Shown here piece after piece: positions 7,544 through 27,660 of a stretch of DNA of 35,101 nucleotides (position 1 is its first letter; each line of letters starts with the position of its first letter). The translations under genes were made by a program, and so were the position numbers. A model generated the notes under the pieces. It searched no databases. It was not told the DNA's origin and was given only the letters and a program-made list of their open reading frames with translations. The stretch lies in the NCBI GenBank assembly GCA_023265925.1, contig JAHFSD010000006.1, positions 1 to 35,101 of the forward strand, given 5' to 3'. This DNA comes from an archaeon (lineage in GTDB: Archaea; Nanobdellota; Nanobdellia; Woesearchaeales; GW2011-AR9).

Positions 7544-8752
7544 TCACAACACAAAAAACAATATCACCGGCACGATCAGGCAGCCCATCAGGTGATTCTT
7601 CCCCACGCCCCAAGAGGAAACCACTAAGCCGATGGCTGTCGCTGTCAGCAGGATGGTCATCCCCAGCACACCGTCAAAATAAAATGCCAGGAGGGCAATA
7701 AAAATAATGATGCCCACAATCAATTTCTGATAATTCACCCTGACGATCCAGGTAGCAAACACTTTCGACAACTGTAAGGTCAGAATTGAGGCGAGACCGC
7801 CAACAACTAAAGCGACGCCGATAAACAACATCATTTCCGGAAAACCGATCTGTTCCAGCAGTTTATTGACAATGACAATGGCACCATTCCTGGACTTGTT
7901 TAAAGCATAGGCTGTGGCGATGGAGATCAGCATGTTAGCGGTGTTGATGCCGCCCACTAAACTCAAAAAACCTTCATCACCGATATCACCAACGACATTG
8001 GTGGCCACAATGGCGGCCTGCGACGAGCCAAACCCGGGCAGGAAGGCCGCGACAAAACCCATCCCCGTCGCTGCGGAGACCGATTTTACCGTATTTTTGG
8101 CAGAGATGGTTAAGGGCTTGTGGAAATCCTGTTGAGGAATGGACGATTTTTGCGACAAACTGACGGTGAGCAATGACAGGCCAAACAATCCTGACAATAA
8201 CGGAAATAACGGCTGCTTCAACGTCGGAATGCTGAACACCAGCAATCCTAAACTTCCCGACAATAAGAAAGCGGCCAATGCTTTCCACTGCTTTCCTTTC
8301 TCCCGGCCAATCATGAAAATCATGATCAGGACCAGCAGATAGCCCACGATGCTTTGCACGCCGGCACCCAGCCATTTCATGGCAACGATAAAAAGCGGGA
8401 ACAGCAGGATTCCCAGCAGCAAGCTTCCCAGCGAGCCAATTACCGTGTAGGTAATGGCATTATGTCCCTCACCTTTTAACAGCAGGCGATGCCCGGGAAG
8501 GACGTTGAGGGCTTGCGCCTCATCCGGTGCACCGAGATAAATGCTCGGCAGGGCATCCAAGAACGTGTGGGTGATCGCCAGGCTGATGATATAGACGCCC
8601 AGAACGACGGGAGAGGTGAGCTGCAGCAGGAACGGCGAGGATGACAGGACGAGCAGGGAGACTAAATTGACGTGGATGCCGGGCGTGATGCCGGTGATGA
8701 TGCCGGTAAGAATGCCCAGGAGCAGGCTGAGAAGGATTTCTAAAAAGGCCAT
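7544..8752 (-). CDS. TctA/DUF112-family archaeal membrane protein
   Basis: LLLGILTGIITGITPGIHVN...PGFGSSQAAIVATNV, multi-TM. Confidence 0.8.
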   Translation of the reverse strand: MAFLEILLSLLLGILTGIITGITPGIHVNLVSLLVLSSSPFLLQLTSPVVLGVYIISLAITHTFLDALPSIYLGAPDEAQALNVLPGHRLLLKGEGHNAITYTVIGSLGSLLLGILLFPLFIVAMKWLGAGVQSIVGYLLVLIMIFMIGREKGKQWKALAAFLLSGSLGLLVFSIPTLKQPLFPLLSGLFGLSLLTVSLSQKSSIPQQDFHKPLTISAKNTVKSVSAATGMGFVAAFLPGFGSSQAAIVATNVVGDIGDEGFLSLVGGINTANMLISIATAYALNKSRNGAIVIVNKLLEQIGFPEMMLFIGVALVVGGLASILTLQLSKVFATWIVRVNYQKLIVGIIIFIALLAFYFDGVLGMTILLTATAIGLVVSSWGVGKNHLMGCLIVPVILFFVL

Positions 8753-9436: not shown

Positions 9437-9694
9437 CCCAATTGGGGTGACCACTCTTTCTAGAAATCCTTCTCAGCCTGTTCCCACCAATTATTTATTT
9501 GTTTGTTGGGTCTAAAACCCCACTGCTTGCAGTGAAATGAATAAATCTCCCAACAAACACAAGAAAACAAACAGCGATTTGTTTTCTGTGCAGACGGGAA
9601 AACTATCCCGTCTTGCACTAAAAATCCCCGCAGCTGTTTCCAACAGGAAACCCCGGAAACCGCAGTTTCCCGTGTGCTGCGATTGGGATTTTTA
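9437..9694. ncRNA. Hairpin-rich structured element A (candidate ncRNA or repeat)
   Basis: 11-bp stem 9500-9510/9549-9559, hairpin 9521-9534, 10-bp stem 9562-9571/9578-9587, 12-bp stem with one bulge 9588-9599/9606-9618, branched arm 9620-9628/9685-9693 enclosing two 6-bp hairpins. Confidence 0.5.
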
Positions 9695-10760: not shown

Positions 10761-10976
10761 GGAAAGCTTGGAAATTGCTGGCTTCACGGGAAAACAAGTT
10801 TTCCGGGGTTTCCTGGCGGAAACGGCCAACAGGGAAGCTCGGCTACACGATTGCTTGCACCCTGTCGTCGTTGGAACGGAAAACCAACCGGAGATACAGC
10901 ACTGTTGCAGCGGTTATTCCAGCTGGTTTTCCGCCGAGCTTCCGGCCTGCCAGCAATTTCCCGGGAGCAGTTTTCC
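10761..10976. ncRNA. Hairpin-rich structured element B (candidate ncRNA or repeat)
   Basis: 13-bp perfect stem 10770-10782/10949-10961; inner 11-bp stem 10833-10843/10933-10943; CGGAAAACCA/TGGTTTTCCG 10877-10886/10924-10933; hairpins 10789-10804 and 10808-10823. Confidence 0.55.
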
Positions 10977-14723: not shown

Positions 14724-17700
14724 ATGGAAGTGGATGAACAAATCAGGCTGTTTCGGGAATTCATTGAGCAGAATTATTACCCCCAGTTGCTGGAAGCCGT
14801 GCGGAAAGGCCAAAAATTCTTAGTTCTTGATTTCACCGAGCTGTTGCGGTTTAACACGGAACTGGCGGAAGAAACGCTGGAAATGCCCCTGGAGCTGCTG
14901 AAAGCGGCCGAACTGGCCGTGAAGGAATTTGAGCTTCCGGCGCCAGTGGATAAATTCACCGTCCGCTTACGGAACCTTCCGGCGTCACAGAAAATACAGA
15001 TCAATGAAATCCGCAGCAAGCACTTGAACAAATTCCTGTGGATGGAAGGAATCATCCGGCAGAAGTCTGACGTGCGCCCGCATGTCCTGGCCTCAAAATT
15101 TGAATGCTTGTCCTGTGGGACCATCATCACTATTTTCCAGTCCGATAAGCGCTACCGGCAGCCGACACGATGCAGCTGCGGCCGGGAACGAAAATTCAAG
15201 GAAATCTCCAAGGAGCTGATTGACGGGCAGGGCTTGGTCTTAGAAGAAGCGCCCGACGAGCTGGAAGGCTCACAGCCCAAACGCATTAATGCCTTTTTGA
15301 AGGATGATTTAGTCTCGCCCATCTCCGAACGGAAATGCAGCCCGGGATCGCGAGTGCGGTTATATGGCTGGGCGGTGGAAGTTCCCGTCGTCCTGCAAAA
15401 GGGCGGGCAGGCAACTAAATTTGACTTGATCATCGAAGCTAACTATATTGAGCCGACGCAGGAAGAAGATGTGGACATCCAGATCAATGAAGAGGAACTG
15501 GCAAAAATTAAAGAAATTGCTGCCAGGCCCAACGTTGTTTCCATACTGGCACAAAACATTGCCCCTTCCATCTACGGCCATGACAAAATCAAAGAAGCGT
15601 TAGTGTTGCAGCTGGCGGGCGGGTGTCGCAAAGTCCGGTCGGACGGCGTAACAACGAGGGGAGACATGCATTTATTATTAATTGGCGACCCTGGTTCCGC
15701 CAAAAGCCAGCTGCTCAAACGCATTTCCAAAATTGCGCCAAGGGCCAGATTTACCAGCGGGAAAGGCGCGACGGCCGTTGGTCTCTGCGTTGCTCCTGAT
15801 TCTTTGGTCATGACTAATCCGGGAATCCACAAAATTGAGTCATTCGTAAATCCTGTTTTGGAGAATAACAGCACAGTCCATGCCGAAGGCATTTGGAAGG
15901 CGAAACGAGTTCTCCCCAAAAAGATTCTTACTATCGATGAAAACCTGCAGATAAAACCGGTGCCGGTGAGCCAGTACTGGAAGCTGCAGGCGCCTCCGGT
16001 CATGATTGAGATCACCACCACTTCTGGAAGGAAGCTTACCGTCACGCCTCACACCAAATTGTTGACGATGCAGGAGGGAGACTTTCTCTGGAAGGAATCG
16101 GAAGAGTTTAGGATAGGAGAACATCTGGCGACGGCCCGGGAGACGAACGTGGAAGGCACTGCCGCGGTTCTTACCATCTCCCTTCTTCAATCCGACCCCA
16201 TTGTTTATTGTGATAAAAAAATACTTAAAGAGATGATTACTGCTCTTGCTGCCAAATACGGCACGAAAAGGGCAGCAGCTAAGAAACTGGGCTGGAACGA
16301 GAACTCTTTGTACCATTTCTGGGTTAAGGAAAGTGCCCGAAGCCACCCTAAACTACATCAAATACAGAAACTGGCCAAAGAATCAGGATCTGGCCTGGAA
16401 GCAGTAGCGAAGGCGATGAAAAGCTTTTCCCTGTACCGCGGTAAGAGAATTACCCTGCCTGTGCATCTCAATGAGCAGCTGCTCTATTTTGCGGGACTGG
16501 TGGCAGGAGACGGCGATATCAGTGGAAAAGGGAAGAATGTCGGCATTCGTTTTTCCAACTCTTCAGAACAGTTGATTGCCTCGTTCATCCAGCTCTCTAA
16601 GGAACTGTTTAATGTTACCTGTAATTATTCTTCGCATCACAGCTGGCAGCGGCCGGCTTCCGTCCGTTTCGGTTCCCTCTTAGTGGCAGAGATTCTTGAC
16701 TCCTTGGGAATTCCTCGCTCGCCCAAGTCGCACCGGATTGACCTCAGCGACACGCTGCTCCGTCTTCCGAACCAGCTCCTCAAGGAATATCTTAAAGGGT
16801 TATTTGACACTGACGGCAGTGTGGTGAAACAAGAACGGGGAAGCTCGTATGTAGAACTGGCAACGACCAGCGAGAAGCTTGCCAATAAATTGCCCCTGGC
16901 CCTTCTTCGTTTTGGCCTTGTCGCAAAGGTAAGAAAAAAAGATAAAGGTGGCACCATTGTAACTCCCCTGCGCACCATCACGCCGAAACATGACAAGTTT
17001 CAGATTGAAATCAAAGGGAGATATTATTTGGAGAAGTTCCAGCGGGAAATCGGGTTTAGCCAGACGGTGAAAATGGAGAAACTGCAGAGTGTTCTAAGCA
17101 AAATAACGAAATACGATACCAACATTGATGTGATTCCCACCATTCAGAAGAAAATATTTAGAATCTCCCAACGGTTAAAAATTTCGTCTCGCCAGCTGTT
17201 GGGGTATAAGCATTCCTATCATAATTTTCCCCGTAACTTCAGTACGCGTTACACACAACAACTAACCGAGCGGATTAAATGCCTGGCTCCTGAAGGAGAC
17301 GGAGGAGACAAAGAATTACCATCTCTTTCCCGCCTGGCGCACTCTTCCTTGTTCTGGGACAAAATTAAAGATATTGTTGCCCTACAACCAGCATATCCTT
17401 ACGTTTATGACTTAACCGTAGAAGGATCCCACAATTTCATTGTCAATGGTATCGTGGTTCATAATACTGCCAGTGTCGTCAAGGATGAATTCCTCGGCGG
17501 CTGGAGCCTGGAAGCAGGCACTTTAGTATTAGCCAACCATGGCTTTGGCATCATTGATGAAATGGACAAGATGGGAAAGGATGACCGTTCTGCTTTACAC
17601 GAAGCGATGGAGCAGCAGCAGGTCAGCATCAGTAAAGCGAACATCCAGGCCACGCTGCGTTGTGAAACGACCGTTATTGCCGCTGCCAACCCTAAAATGG

Positions 17701-18422
17701 GGCGGTTTGATCCCTATGACGATATTTACCGGCAGATTGACCTGCCGCCCACGCTGATTAACCGCTTTGACCTGATTTTTCCGATCATGGACCGGCCCAG
17801 CCGGGAACGGGATGAAGAGATGGCCGCCTTCATCCTGAACCTGCATCAGAATCCCTTGGCTGCCTCCTCAGAAATTCCCACAGATTTGTTTAAGAAATAT
17901 TTTACCTACATCCGGCAAAAGATCAATCCGCTGATGACTGATGAGGCCATTGAAGAATTGAAACAGTATTATGTAAGCATGCGCAGTTCCGGCATCACGG
18001 AGGGAGGCGTTTCCACTGTTCCCATTACTGCCCGGCAGCTGGAAGCCCTGGTGCGCTTGTCAGAAGCGGCGGCAAAAGTCCGCTTGTCTAAGACCGTTAC
18101 CAAACAAGATGCCCAAAAAGCTATTGAGATGATCGATTATTGCCTGAACCAGATCGCCAAGGACATCAAGACGGGAAAGATTGACATTGACAAGTTGACC
18201 AGTGGCATCACGGCAACACAACGCGGCACAATCAGCATGATCAAAGAGATCATTACCTCGCTGGAAGAGCAGATGGGCACGAAAATAATTCCCGTCGAGC
18301 AGATCGTGGAAGCGGCAGCGCAGAAGAATATCCATAAAGCCGATGCGGAAGACGTGTTGGAGAAGCTTCGCCGTTCGGGCGACATCTTTGAGCCCCGGCG
18401 GGGCTTTGTGCAGAAATTGTAA
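14724..18422 (+). CDS. mcm: Replicative DNA helicase MCM, intein-containing
   Basis: [34 protein letters not shown] | intein | [36 protein letters not shown]. Confidence 0.97.
   Translation: [1232 protein letters not shown]
15786..17465 (+). mobile_element. MCM intein (560 aa) with LAGLIDADG-type homing endonuclease
   Basis: Starts [11 protein letters not shown], ends [14 protein letters not shown] before +1 Thr; [14 protein letters not shown] and [11 protein letters not shown] motifs. Confidence 0.95.
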
Positions 18423-18432
18423 GTGTAGAAAC

Positions 18433-18588
18433 GTATGTGGAAAGCTGGCTTGGCCAATGTGCGAGCCGAGAACTGCCTTCGTTCATGAGAATTATCAAGG
18501 TGCTTTTCAGCGGGAAGAAATACTGGATTTGGACGATTGATGAAGCCAGAAAAGCACGAGGCTCGCGGCCCGCCAGCTTTCCACGTAC
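18433..18588 (+). ncRNA. Structured element C between mcm and RPA-like gene (candidate ncRNA or UTR structure)
   Basis: 17-bp stem 18433-18449/18572-18588 (one G.U), nested 7-bp GCGAGCC/GGCTCGC (18461-18467/18560-18566) and 9-bp GTGCTTTTC/GAAAAGCAC (18500-18508/18549-18557). Confidence 0.55.
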
Positions 18589-21706: not shown

Positions 21707-23482
21707 ATGGAGCCTGACATGGACAACCCCCAGGAATTAAACAATCCTCCGGAATTAATTCAGCAGATAATTCAGCAGATGTTTGAGCGCGGCATTCTCC
21801 TTAACCAGGAGATGGTCCGGCAGAACGTCCCCGCGTCGTTAGTGGATACAATAGAATCCGAAGCTGACCTGATCGTCTTGACGGCCGATTATGCTGTCGT
21901 TCTTACCCAACCGGCCAGTTTCGTTGATTGGTATGAAATTGACCGTGACCGTGTCCGGGCCGAGAAGTATCATGACGATGAACTTTATCAACGGCATCTG
22001 CAGGACTGGAAAAAAACAGCGGTGACAGCTTCAGCAGCATCTTCCACTGGCATTACTGCTACTGCCACTACATCCACTGCTACCATCACCACCCTGGAAA
22101 TGGAATTAAAAACAGCTGAACCGGAAGTCACGTTCTCACTCCTCCCACCAGCGGCCTATCCTGAAAACAGCCTGATCATGGAACAGTCGCGTTCTCTTTC
22201 CTTTCCCCTTTCCCTGCCAGAAAAGGTCACTATCTTCATTACCCCCAAAGCGGTAGCCCGGAAATATGAAGTGAAGGATTTTACTTCTTTATTCCTTTCC
22301 CGTTACCGCTACCTTTCCGGGTTGCTTCGCCACCGGCAGGAATTGATTTCAGCGCTGCCAATCAGCCGTCTCACGTCACTGAAAGAAAGGCAAACCGTTG
22401 CCTTGATTGCCATGGTCGCGGAGATCAAAACGACAAAAACCGGCAATACCCTGCTAACCCTGGAAGATCCTACCGGGCAGTTGCGCGCCCTGGTCTCCAA
22501 GGCAAAAGAAGAACTGTTGGCTGCGGCAAAAGACTTGGTACATGATGAAGTCATCGGCGTGGTCGGGACCTATTCTGACCAGATGCTGTTTGTGGATGCG
22601 CTGATCTGGCCCGACCTGCCGGTACTGGATCTTAAAAAGAATCCTGATGTTGACGAGTATGCCATTTTCCTCTCGGACATCCATGTTGGCTCCGCCCTGT
22701 TTCTCAAGGATGAGTTTGAAAAATTAGTGTTGTGGATCAACGGCCATATTGGCAACGACCAGCAACGGGAAATTGCTGAAAAAGTTAAGTATATCTTTAT
22801 TGCCGGCGATCTGGTGGACGGAGTAGGGATTTATCCCGCCCAGGAATCTGAGTTAGCGATCACCGACATTCACCGGCAATATCAGGAATTTACCCGGTTG
22901 ATCAAACGCTTCCCTCCCGATAAGCAGATCATTATCTGTCCGGGCAACCATGACGTCGTGCATTTAGCCGAGCCGCAGCCAGCGCTCTATCCGGACTATG
23001 CCGCGGAACTGTTGACGTTACCCCACGTCTTTCTGGTGCCTAATCCTTCCTGGATCACCATTGGAAAAACGAACACCTTTCCTGGCTTTGACGTGCTGCT
23101 CTACCATGGCTATTGTTTTGATTACTATGTTGCCAACGTCGAGTCAATCCGCGCCAATGGCGGCTACCGCCGCGCTGACTTAATCATGAAATTTTTACTG
23201 AAACGCCGTCACTTGGCGCCGTCATTTAAATCCACGCCGTATTATCCTGGCCAGGCTGATGACCCGCTGCTGATTCGCCAGGTGCCTGACTTTTTAGTGA
23301 CGGGGCATATCCATTATTCTCACATCAACAATTACAAGAGTGTCACCATGATCAGCGGCAGTTGCTGGCAGGGGAAGACGTCCTTTCAGGAAAAACTGGG
23401 ACATGACCCTGAACCGGCGCGCGTTCCCTGGGTTAACCTGCGCACGCGGGAGATGAAAATCCTGAAATTTGGTGCACTATGA
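21707..23482 (+). CDS. polB: DNA polymerase D small subunit DP1 (exonuclease)
   Basis: OB fold then LSDIHVGS, IAGDLVDGVG, CPGNHDVVH, VTGHIHY calcineurin-like motifs. Confidence 0.94.
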   Translation: MEPDMDNPQELNNPPELIQQIIQQMFERGILLNQEMVRQNVPASLVDTIESEADLIVLTADYAVVLTQPASFVDWYEIDRDRVRAEKYHDDELYQRHLQDWKKTAVTASAASSTGITATATTSTATITTLEMELKTAEPEVTFSLLPPAAYPENSLIMEQSRSLSFPLSLPEKVTIFITPKAVARKYEVKDFTSLFLSRYRYLSGLLRHRQELISALPISRLTSLKERQTVALIAMVAEIKTTKTGNTLLTLEDPTGQLRALVSKAKEELLAAAKDLVHDEVIGVVGTYSDQMLFVDALIWPDLPVLDLKKNPDVDEYAIFLSDIHVGSALFLKDEFEKLVLWINGHIGNDQQREIAEKVKYIFIAGDLVDGVGIYPAQESELAITDIHRQYQEFTRLIKRFPPDKQIIICPGNHDVVHLAEPQPALYPDYAAELLTLPHVFLVPNPSWITIGKTNTFPGFDVLLYHGYCFDYYVANVESIRANGGYRRADLIMKFLLKRRHLAPSFKSTPYYPGQADDPLLIRQVPDFLVTGHIHYSHINNYKSVTMISGSCWQGKTSFQEKLGHDPEPARVPWVNLRTREMKILKFGAL

Positions 23483-23506
23483 CTAGCTATAACTAATTAT
23501 AACTAA

Positions 23507-23599
23507 TAGCAAAACACATTAATAATGGAACAAATAGTGTGTTTTGCTAGGATAGTAAAGTGCCTATAAATCAGTTCCATTATTTGTGCACTTTACTAT
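23507..23599. repeat. Twin hairpins with complementary loops
   Basis: TAGCAAAACACA/TGTGTTTTGCTA (23507-23518/23538-23549), ATAGTAAAGTGC/GCACTTTACTAT (23552-23563/23588-23599), loops AATAATGGAAC (23521-23531) and GTTCCATTATT (23574-23584) perfectly complementary. Confidence 0.9.
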
Positions 23600-23619
23600 A
23601 ACGATAAGTAACTGTAACT

Positions 23620-26600
23620 ATGACTACTACTCCATCGCCAGCTTTTCTGTCACCCGTGGTTGCGGCTTCCCCTACCCTGCAGAACTACTTCCAGCGAATC
23701 AGGCAACAGGTGCAATCCTGCTATGATCGTGCGGCCCAGGCCCGGGCTCAGGGTCTTGACCCGGAACATCACGTTCCCATTCCCCTCGCTCAGGACATGG
23801 CCGAGCGTGTTGTGGGCCTGATTTCGGTCATCGCGCCTGCCGTTGTCAATTCACCCATCCGGCAACGCATCATGGACTTAGAGCAGCAGTATGGGCGGCT
23901 CGATTGGCGCGTCGGATTTGTCATTGCCGAAGAAATTGCTCAGGGAAAGCACTGCTCGTTTGCCAACCCGCTGGAAGCGGCAGAAGTGGGCATCCGCGTC
24001 GGGTTTGCTTATCTGACGTTAGGCATTGTCTCGGCTCCCCTGGAAGGGTTCATTGGGCTGAAAATCAAAAAAAGGAAAGATGGTCGGGAATATTTTGCCG
24101 CGCAGTATGCTGGCCCCATCCGGGGAGCAGGAGGAACTGCCGCTTCCCTTTCCGTCATTTTAACTGATTATGTCCGCCTGAAGTTGGGTTATGCTCCTTA
24201 TGATCCTGATGATGCTGAAATTAACCGCGCCGTGATGGAAGTGCAGGATTACCATGAGCGGGTCACTAACCTGCAGTATTTCCCTTCGGAAGAAGAGCTG
24301 CGTTTTCTGGTCTCGCATCTGCCCGTGGAAGTGGACGGCGATCCCACGGAACAGTTTGAGGTATCTAATTACAAGGACCTTCCCCGCATTGAAACGAACC
24401 TGATTCGCGGCGGCATTCCGTTAGTGTTAGCGGAAGGGCTCTGCCAGAAAGCGCCTAAACTCTGGAAACGCCTTTCCAAATGGGGGAAACAGCTTGGCCT
24501 GGAATGGGACTGGCTTCCTGAATTTATCCGGTTGAAGGAACGGATTCATGCCGCTCACGCTCCCAAAGAGAACGCCGGGGAAAAAAGAGTCCAGCCAAAC
24601 AATACATTCATCATGGACCTTGTTGCCGGCCGGCCAATTCTGACTCATCCGTTAGCAGTGGGCGGGTTGCGCCTGCGCTATGGAAGGACGAGGATGTCCG
24701 GCTTTTCAGCAGCAGCATTGAATCCAGTCACGTTGTTGGTGCTGGACAAGTACATTGCCATTGGCACGCAACTGAAGGTGGAACGGCCGGGAAAGGCAGC
24801 CTGTGTCACTATTTGCGACGTTATTGATGGCCCCATTGTCAAGCTGCGGGATGGTTCCGTTATCCATCTCAAGACGGAGATACAGGCAAAGCAGTATCTT
24901 GCTGAGATTGACGAAATTCTCTTTCTGGGCGACATCCTGTTTAATTACGGTGATTTCTCCGAAAACGGGCAAAGTTTAGTGCCCGCCGGGTACTGTCCGG
25001 AATGGTGGGTGGCAGAAGTCGAAAAGGCACAGCAGGAAAAATCACAGCAGGAGCAAGCCCATGTTATCGTTCCTCTTCCTGCGCATCCTCTCCCTGAGAA
25101 TCGCTTTCGTGACCTGTTACGTGATCCTTTTACCACGATTCCCACCTGGGAGGAAGCCACGCTGTTAAGCACCGAATGGCAAGTCCCACTTCATCCGGAA
25201 TACACTTTTTACTGGAAGTTAGCATCGGCAGAAGAATTGAACTTTCTCCGGCAGTGGCTGGCGGAAGGAAAATTAAAGAAAGACGAGCAGGGAATCAGTA
25301 AAATTATCCTTCCCTACTATTCTTCCCCGGAGGCTTCCCTGGAGACGCCGGCTCGGGGGAAGGCAGTTTTGGAGCAAATGGGCGTGCCGCATCTGGTGGT
25401 GAATAAGGAATGCGTTGTCCTGGAACGCCAGGAAGCTAACAGCCTGGCGTTCAGCCTGGGGTTTGACGACCAGAACAGCATGGAAACGATTACGGTTTTT
25501 AATGATGTTGCTAATAGTGCTACTAATGGTGTTGCTGTTTCCAATGGCGTCGCCCTGCGCACCGGGTTAGATGTCGTTTCCCGGCTCTGTCGCGTTCCTG
25601 TTCGCGACAAGGCAGGAACATTTGTTGGTGCCCGGATGGGCCGGCCGGAGAAAGCAAAAATGCGGCATTTGACCGGCTCGCCGCAGATGATGTTTCCCGT
25701 GGGAAATGAAGGTGATCGTCTCCGGAGTCTGCAGGCCGCGTTGGAAAAAGGTAAAGTCCATAGCACCTTTCCCCGATTTTACTGTCGGCAGTGCCAGCGC
25801 GAGATGATTTATCCCCGCTGTGAAGAGTGCGCTTCTCCGACGGAACAGCGGTACCATTGCCGCATCTGCGGCGATCTGGAGAAACAGCAATGCCGGCACG
25901 GGGCTGCCGCTCCCTACAAAACGACTGATGTAGATATCAACTATTATTTCACTAAGGCAAAAGAGCGGTTGGGTGAGAAATTTCCTCCCGACCTGATCAA
26001 AGGCATCCGCGGGACGTCCAACAAAGACCATGTCGTGGAACATCTGGCTAAAGGGATTCTGCGGGCAAAACATGGCATTTATGTCAATAAGGATGGCACG
26101 ACGAGGTACGATTGCACTGAGCTTCCGGCAACCCATTTCAAGCCGAAAGAGGTCAAAACCACGATTGTCAAATTAAAAGAGTTAGGGTATGAACAAGACA
26201 TTTACGGCCGGGAATTGGTGGAAGAAGATCAGTTATTAGAGTTACGGCCACAGGACATCATTCTTCCCGGGTTTGATTCCTTGGACGAGTCAGCCGGCCA
26301 GGTGTTAATGCGGGTAGCCCGGTTTGTGGATGATTTGCTGATTCGTTTTTATCATCTCCCGCCATTCTACAACCTGAAGAAAGAAGAAGATCTCGTCGGC
26401 CATTTGGTGATTGGCTTAGCGCCGCATATTTCTGCCGGGATGGTCGGCCGGATTATCGGTTTCTCCGAGACGCAAGGATTGCTGGCTCACCCACTCTATC
26501 ATGCCGGGATGAGAAGGGATGCCGATGGCGATGAAGCTGCCGTGATGCTGCTGCTGGACGCCTTGCTCAATTTTTCCCGGCGATTTCTTCCTAAAAGCAG

Positions 26601-27288
26601 AGGGTCAACCATGGATTCTCCTCTGGTGTTAACCTGCACGTTAAATCCGGCAGAAGTCGATGACCAGGTGCATGGGTTGGACGTTTCCTGGCGCTACCCT
26701 CTGGAATTATATGAAGCGGCGCTGGAAATGAACAAACCGTGGGATGTTCGTCATGGGCCGGAGCAGAAAAAAATCGAGCAGCTCGCGGACCGGTTAGGAA
26801 CGCCCTTTCAGTACGAAGGCATCGGCTTTACCCATCCCATCGACAATTTCAACAAGGGCGTGAAATGTTCTGCCTATAAGACCAAGCCTTCCATGGAAGA
26901 GAAGCTGCGGGGGCAGATGGAGATCGCCCGGAAAGTGCGGGCGGTGGACATGGATGACGTCGCTAAGTTAGTGATTCAGAAGCATTTCCTGAAAGACATT
27001 AAAGGCAACTTAAAGAAGTTTTCCATGCAGCAGTTCAGGTGCGTGAAATGCAACGAGAAGTACCGCCGCCCGCCGCTGGTGGGAAAGTGTCTGGCCTGCG
27101 GGAACAGGTTGCTGTTTACCATTACGGAAGGTTCCATCGTCAAGTATCTGGGCCCTTCGTTGATGTTATGCGAGAACTACGATTTTTCGCCGTATCTGAA
27201 ACAAGTGTTGGCCATCGCCAAGTTCAATGTTGATACCTTATTTGGCAAGGAAAAGGAGAAACAGGTGGGATTGGCAGCGTTTGTGTGA
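23620..27288 (+). CDS. polC: DNA polymerase D large subunit DP2 (no intein)
   Basis: [64 protein letters not shown], zinc motifs [16 protein letters not shown]. Confidence 0.97.
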   Translation: [1222 protein letters not shown]

Positions 27289-27660
27289 TATAAGCTACGC
27301 AGTTTACCATAATGTCACTAAATTAGCGCAATTGACTATATACGCCTTGAACGAAGCGAGAGTGCAACGGGGCAAGCGAAGCGTAGTGAATTTTTGCGCT
27401 ACTTTTTCGACGATAAAAGCATACCTCGACTTCTTAACGTGGTTGCCTTCGTTTAGCTAAAACGGAGAACGTACAAAATTGAAAACTTTGCCTAACATAT
27501 GCTAAACGATTCGCTCCGCTCTCCAGAATTTTTGATTACTCTCTAAACTAGGGAAACAATCTCTCAACGTACTTTAATCAGAACGTGGCCGCCTTTCTCC
27601 TCCTAACTGCTCGAACTCTTCCCGAGATAGACAAAAACTAACTGACGCCCGCCCCCGATG

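Follow-up and report, generated by a model that had tools for sequence, protein, structure and literature searches.

The twin hairpins that lie between the genes for the two subunits of PolD in the window (the whole 35,101-nt stretch of archaeal DNA that was analysed) are, very probably, one copy of a non-autonomous, hairpin-ended mobile element of about 92 bp, which resembles the MITEs and the REPINs and would be moved in trans. The element is dispersed over its host genome and over related genomes, where it has inserted mostly between genes and has duplicated 3 bp of its target; its stems covary, it belongs to a set of subfamilies, and elements of this kind are nested within one another. It is also possible, although we place this well short of an even chance, that Woesearchaeota-type archaea have here a novel transposition system, whose enzyme reads twin-hairpin ends (in cruciform or single-stranded form), makes a 3-bp TWA duplication, takes its specificity from the loop motif, and serves about a dozen subfamilies whose halves can be exchanged.

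The element runs from TAG to CTA over 92 bp, at positions 23507-23598 of the forward strand, on which all of the following features are also read; its limits were set by the repeat copies, their flanks, and the evidence of insertion. Hairpin 1 (23507-23549) consists of the arms 23507-23518 and 23538-23549 around the loop 23519-23537, and hairpin 2 (23552-23599) consists of the arms 23552-23563 and 23588-23599 around the loop 23564-23587. Between them is the junction GG (23550-23551), at which other hairpin elements are inserted in composite copies elsewhere. Both direct reading of the sequence and a repeat finder show that stem 1 is perfect over 12 bp, extending to 15 columns at 93%, and that stem 2 pairs in 12/12 positions. 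The loop-1 motif AATAATGGAAC (23521-23531; subfamily consensus AATWATNGAAC) recurs inverted as the loop-2 motif GTTCCATTATT (23574-23584), and the two are perfect 11-nt complements. The two perfect 12-bp hairpins, the 2-nt spacer, and the 11-nt complementary loops are thus exactly where the earlier note had placed them. There is also an end-to-end inverted repeat (23506-23531 / 23574-23599; 26 nt, 77% complementary), which includes both loop motifs and suggests that the complementarity of the loops is part of a larger symmetry. The fold has a z-score of -5.7 as DNA and -5.8 as RNA against dinucleotide shuffles, and none of 200 shuffles matched the fold of the twin hairpins. In a scan of 420 kb by geometry only, 23 twin hairpins were returned where block-shuffled sequence gave 4.

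About nine intact copies are present in the host genome, with 87-97% identity and on both strands, together with several interrupted copies; when the host copies are aligned, the identity ends at TAA on the left and at TAA on the right. A DNA search of 60 relatives found copies in six. With a covariance model built from twelve twin hairpins, matches were obtained in 23/51 genomes of the family (19/36 genera) and in 32/147 genomes sampled from the order, that of the Woesearchaeota-type archaea (29/123 genera); because the near-palindromic element is matched on both strands, the numbers of matches amount to as much as twice the copy number. One relative (G021) has five copies that are identical from TAG to CTA, which are signs of very recent movement. 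In a set of 60 copies, 55 are not covered by an open reading frame of at least 80 codons, and in about ten the TWA overlaps the end of the flanking gene by exactly that trinucleotide. The copies elsewhere sit between unrelated genes, and a blastn search of plasmid and phage collections gave no match to the element.

Two copies of the trinucleotide TAA, recognised from the flanks and from the comparison of copies, border the element at 23504-23506 and 23599-23601. The single clean pair of an empty and a filled site comes from contig 52 of genome G000, where one copy interrupts another dispersed repeat of which uninterrupted versions exist in the same genome. The filled site reads GATTTGGGCGA-TAA-(TAG...CTA, 92 bp)-TAA-ACTCATC and the empty site reads GATTTGGGCGA-CAA-ACTCATC (GGGCGA-TAA versus GGGCGA-CAA on the left). 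In a census of the flanks of the 60 copies, aligned by the model, the trinucleotides were TAA/TAA in 49 and TTA/TTA in 7; in other words, an identical TWA flanks 56/60 copies, the remaining four depart on one side only, and mixtures of TAA and TTA do not occur (Fisher 4e-9). Three genomes each have a TTA/TTA copy with a TAA/TAA sister of 97-99% identity, and because such near-identical sister copies differ in their flanks, the trinucleotide must be supplied by the target and not by the element. The TAACTA-rich repeats flanking the hairpins, which the earlier note had pointed out, are missing from other copies and are local target sequence. It should be mentioned that the element is oriented with respect to its target: read from hairpin 1 to hairpin 2, the 60 copies show 49 TAA and 7 TTA, a bias that is unexpected for a simple symmetric double-strand transposase. 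In other subfamilies, the ends show just TA, and no 3-bp duplication is evident.

At the present site, the element begins 21 nt past DP1 (PolD small subunit; 21707-23482, forward strand, PF04042) and ends 18 nt ahead of DP2 (PolD large subunit; 23620-27288, forward strand, PF03833/PF24844/PF24846). The identities of these codirectional genes were confirmed by Pfam, and the named relatives of DP2 are archaeal metagenome-assembled genomes (MAGs), one of which is labelled Candidatus Woesearchaeota. The loci around the start of DP2 were read in 29 other genomes. One contig, that of the sister species, ends at the junction; in the other 28 genomes the junction could be read, and the element is missing from this orthologous site in all of them. 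When 92 + 3 bases are subtracted from the window, coordinate arithmetic leaves a DP1-DP2 spacer of 42 nt, which agrees with most relatives, whose spacers are short or absent (almost nil in L057). In G021 (L059) and in JAGVMW (L056, JAGVMW010000081.1), the spacer holds different, unrelated nested hairpins, and for this reason it looks like a tolerated insertion spot that has been used as if repeatedly. The right arm CTTTACTATAA, which precedes the start of DP2 by about 20-30 nt, could serve as a TATA box.

The stems are kept as pairs with many compensatory changes. In the twelve-sequence alignment, 10/24 stem pairs have changed on both sides, which is far above shuffles and slid controls, and a larger alignment of 53 distinct rows contains 1217 cells with a Watson-Crick pair, of which 115 are alternative pairs, versus 18 G.T and 19 A.C cells. 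Because the two kinds of mispair are equally rare, whereas an RNA made from one strand would favour G.U, the structure appears to be maintained at the level of DNA. The loops behave differently: the loop-loop helix is not maintained, pair 21-78 being broken in 8/12 aligned sequences, and within the subfamily the exact complement is 4-13 nt long (median 6) and is 5 nt or shorter in 21/49 copies. What is conserved in the loops is the consensus of each, namely inverted copies of one motif (AATWATNGAAC), and the loops look complementary because this subfamily motif is repeated in them in inverted form. Only between subfamilies do both loops change together (permutation p ~0.001 for the seven subfamilies that geometry alone had revealed; p 5e-5 for nineteen, a set that includes those found by the model and is therefore partly biased by it). 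A kissing interaction accounts for this pattern less well than do recognition motifs carried in inverted ends.

Searches by model and by geometry revealed about a dozen subfamilies that are unrelated in sequence and have a common twin-hairpin plan, with stems of ~12 bp, loops of ~18 and ~23 nt, and a junction of 0-3 nt. The loop pairs of other subfamilies are, for example, TATACAAA/TTTGTATA, AATTATGTTA/TAACATAATT, TGAGCAA/TTGCTCA, and TTTCGAA/TTCGAAA. Halves are exchanged between subfamilies: the copy at L177:13467 combines halves from two of them, and L124 and L128 do likewise. Some copies have other twin hairpins inserted into their junction or loops, in G000 (C52, C54, C47, and C16), and similarly nested ones occur in G026, G028, G071, and G117; two of the nested insertions have duplications, TTC/TTC and TAC/TAC. 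Some loci are composites built like Russian dolls, up to several levels deep, with unrelated hairpins in the loops and the junction (L016/L022 on G000 contig 54, L018 on contig 45, L020 on contig 47, and L014 on contig 52). Two copies with a single hairpin, L205 and L207, were considered as the mobile unit and rejected; as they finish with the right end of hairpin 2, they seem to have arisen by deletion from the right arm of one hairpin to that of the other.

The element inserts at TWA (TAA/TTA), for the most part in intergenic DNA, with duplication of these 3 bp. It is an imperfect inverted repeat, each half of which folds as a hairpin; in this subfamily, both ends start with TAGYAAA, and each hairpin loop bears an inverted copy of the subfamily-specific motif AATWATNGAAC. 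In the mechanism proposed here, an enzyme supplied in trans would recognise the two ends, either as hairpin shapes or as terminal inverted repeats, and would insert the element with a 3-nt stagger; it may or may not read the hairpins as folded DNA. As for the source of such an enzyme, Y1_Tnp (PF01797) is absent from the host and from six copy-bearing genomes (G001, G014, G015, G021, G068, and G071), with Y1 transposases present in 19/51 genomes of the family, and DDE_Tnp_1 (PF01609) is absent from the host, G001, G015, G068, and G071. In ten genomes tested, including the host, DDE_Tnp_4 (PF13359) gave no match over the curated cut-off, and the TnpB zinc domain was found in none of the ten genomes tested for it. 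The few transposase families tested (Y1, DDE_1, DDE_4, and TnpB) thus include none common to all copy-rich genomes, and the absences in the host are those of a MAG that is 86% complete. A search by end motif of 51 draft genomes turned up no larger, autonomous element whose ends match. In G014, an IS5-like gene was considered as the mover and was discarded, its ends being unrelated to those of the element.

The location between two codirectional genes and the stable predicted RNA fold would suit a conserved cis-acting RNA that controlled DP2 by means of kissing loops or of an alternative pairing, or else a separate small RNA, as the earlier note had proposed. We regard this as very improbable, because 28 relatives have the DP1-DP2 junction without the element and copies elsewhere lie between unrelated genes, because the mispairs are strand-symmetric and lack the excess of G.U that selection on RNA would give, and because the loop-loop helix is broken in most of the aligned sequences and short in most copies; Rfam, too, gave one sub-threshold chance match and no family at threshold. 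No more credible is a paired operator or nucleoid site, bound by protein and spread by recombination instead of transposition. The symmetric TAGYAAA...TTTRCTA motifs and the conserved inverted loop motifs are what such a site would be expected to have, but insertion has been precise and has duplicated 3 bp at numerous unrelated sites, and the presence of the element is patchy between genera, both of which argue against it. The idea in the earlier note that this DNA might be a paired site, both stems sharing the pattern TAGYAAA...TTTRCTA, comes close to the reading we favour if the site is taken as one of recognition.

The other two alternatives concern the manner of movement and the meaning of the hairpins. 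To our knowledge, transposition of single-stranded DNA by Y1 enzymes produces no target duplication, and the flanking trinucleotide here is both duplicated and derived from the target. This observation, together with the lack of Y1_Tnp in the host and the six copy-bearing genomes, makes it improbable that the element consists of two inverted hairpin units of REP/REPIN type, moved as single-stranded DNA by a RAYT-like Y1 transposase, even though the target is strongly oriented and Y1 transposases occur in other genomes of the family. The REPINs share with it the topology, an alternative fold as one long hairpin, compensatory changes in the stems, and intergenic dispersal (PMC3116915). A less remote alternative, which we still consider unlikely, is that the perfect stems are a mutational by-product of template switching at quasi-palindromes and that the element is a transposon with short terminal inverted repeats, in which the hairpins play no role; this would change the meaning of the hairpins and not the mobility. 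In its favour, stem changes are nearly all from one Watson-Crick pair to another with few intermediates, and in one copy (L054) the flank has become a 15-nt near-palindrome of that copy's loop. Against it, the twin geometry is kept across many subfamilies with unrelated stems, for which palindrome correction alone is insufficient. The reading we prefer remains that of a hairpin-ended mobile element moved in trans.

Several other features were seen in the course of this analysis. In L054 (G021:C11:50815), which is half an element, the flank and the element's own loop sequence together make a 14/15-nt palindrome that resembles a template-switch scar. The gap between MCM and the next gene holds a second dispersed repeat, of ~155 bp (18431-18588 of the window), which forms a long nested hairpin; in its copies L173, L175, and L176 the inner cassette is kept, and some outer arms are different yet self-complementary. 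The MCM helicase gene (14724-18422) has an intein with LAGLIDADG domains (PF14890, PF14528). At and immediately behind the DP2 stop (27287-27344) are the arms GCTACGCAGTTTACCATAA and TTAGCGCAATTGACTATA, which belong to two further hairpin elements that recur elsewhere in the genome. Two long inverted repeats are also present in the window: 9633-9674 / 10785-10826 (42 nt, 81%, ~1.1 kb apart) and 8719-8747 / 9456-9484 (29 nt, 93%, ~0.7 kb apart).

An abundant and structurally well-defined superfamily of hairpin-ended mobile elements spans a large order of small-genome archaea without a recognised mover. It offers a tractable way of searching for a new transposase and of asking if the substrate is a DNA hairpin or a linear inverted repeat. 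There is a warning in it as well: where intergenic twin hairpins covary in genomes of this kind, one should look for repeated copies before naming them regulatory RNAs.

We found no description of these elements in the open-access literature that was searched; the closest kinds are the prokaryotic MITEs, the REPINs, and the double-hairpin elements of mitochondria. Like MITEs, the element is short, AT-rich, non-coding, multicopy, and intergenic, with terminal inverted repeats, a target duplication, and a stable predicted fold; specifically, it has 92 bp, inverted ends of 26 nt at 77%, about nine intact copies, and a duplicated target. Unlike in MITEs, each half is a near-perfect hairpin with covarying stems, the halves are interchangeable between subfamilies, the elements nest in one another's loops, and no parental autonomous element was found in the 51 draft genomes. 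Among the MITEs, the Tourist-like ones (PIF/Harbinger-IS5 group) make a 3-bp target duplication of TAA/TTA, and the TWA duplication of the present element is of this kind, but the host has neither DDE_Tnp_4 nor DDE_Tnp_1, and the ends of the IS5-like element of G014 are unrelated. The Correia elements of Neisseria, ~100-150 bp long and situated near genes, have inverted ends of ~26 bp starting with TATAG; likened by description, they agree in size, inverted ends, and proximity to genes, whereas they belong to a different domain of life and duplicate TA, and we know of no twin hairpin in them. The REPINs and BIMEs are doublets of REP sequences with RAYT transposases, and they likewise have two inverted hairpin modules totalling ~100 nt, compensatory changes, both a long-hairpin and a two-hairpin fold, and extragenic dispersal (PMC3116915); the present element differs by its 3-bp TWA duplication and by the absence of a Y1/RAYT gene from the host and several copy-bearing relatives. 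Finally, the mitochondrial DNA of Allomyces has double-hairpin elements (Paquin et al. 2000, cited in PMC7218506), which are described by the citing paper as likewise two adjacent hairpins, optional at their sites and with mobility inferred; compared by that description, the present element is archaeal, has ~92 bp and a defined TWA duplication, and bears inverted motifs in its loops.
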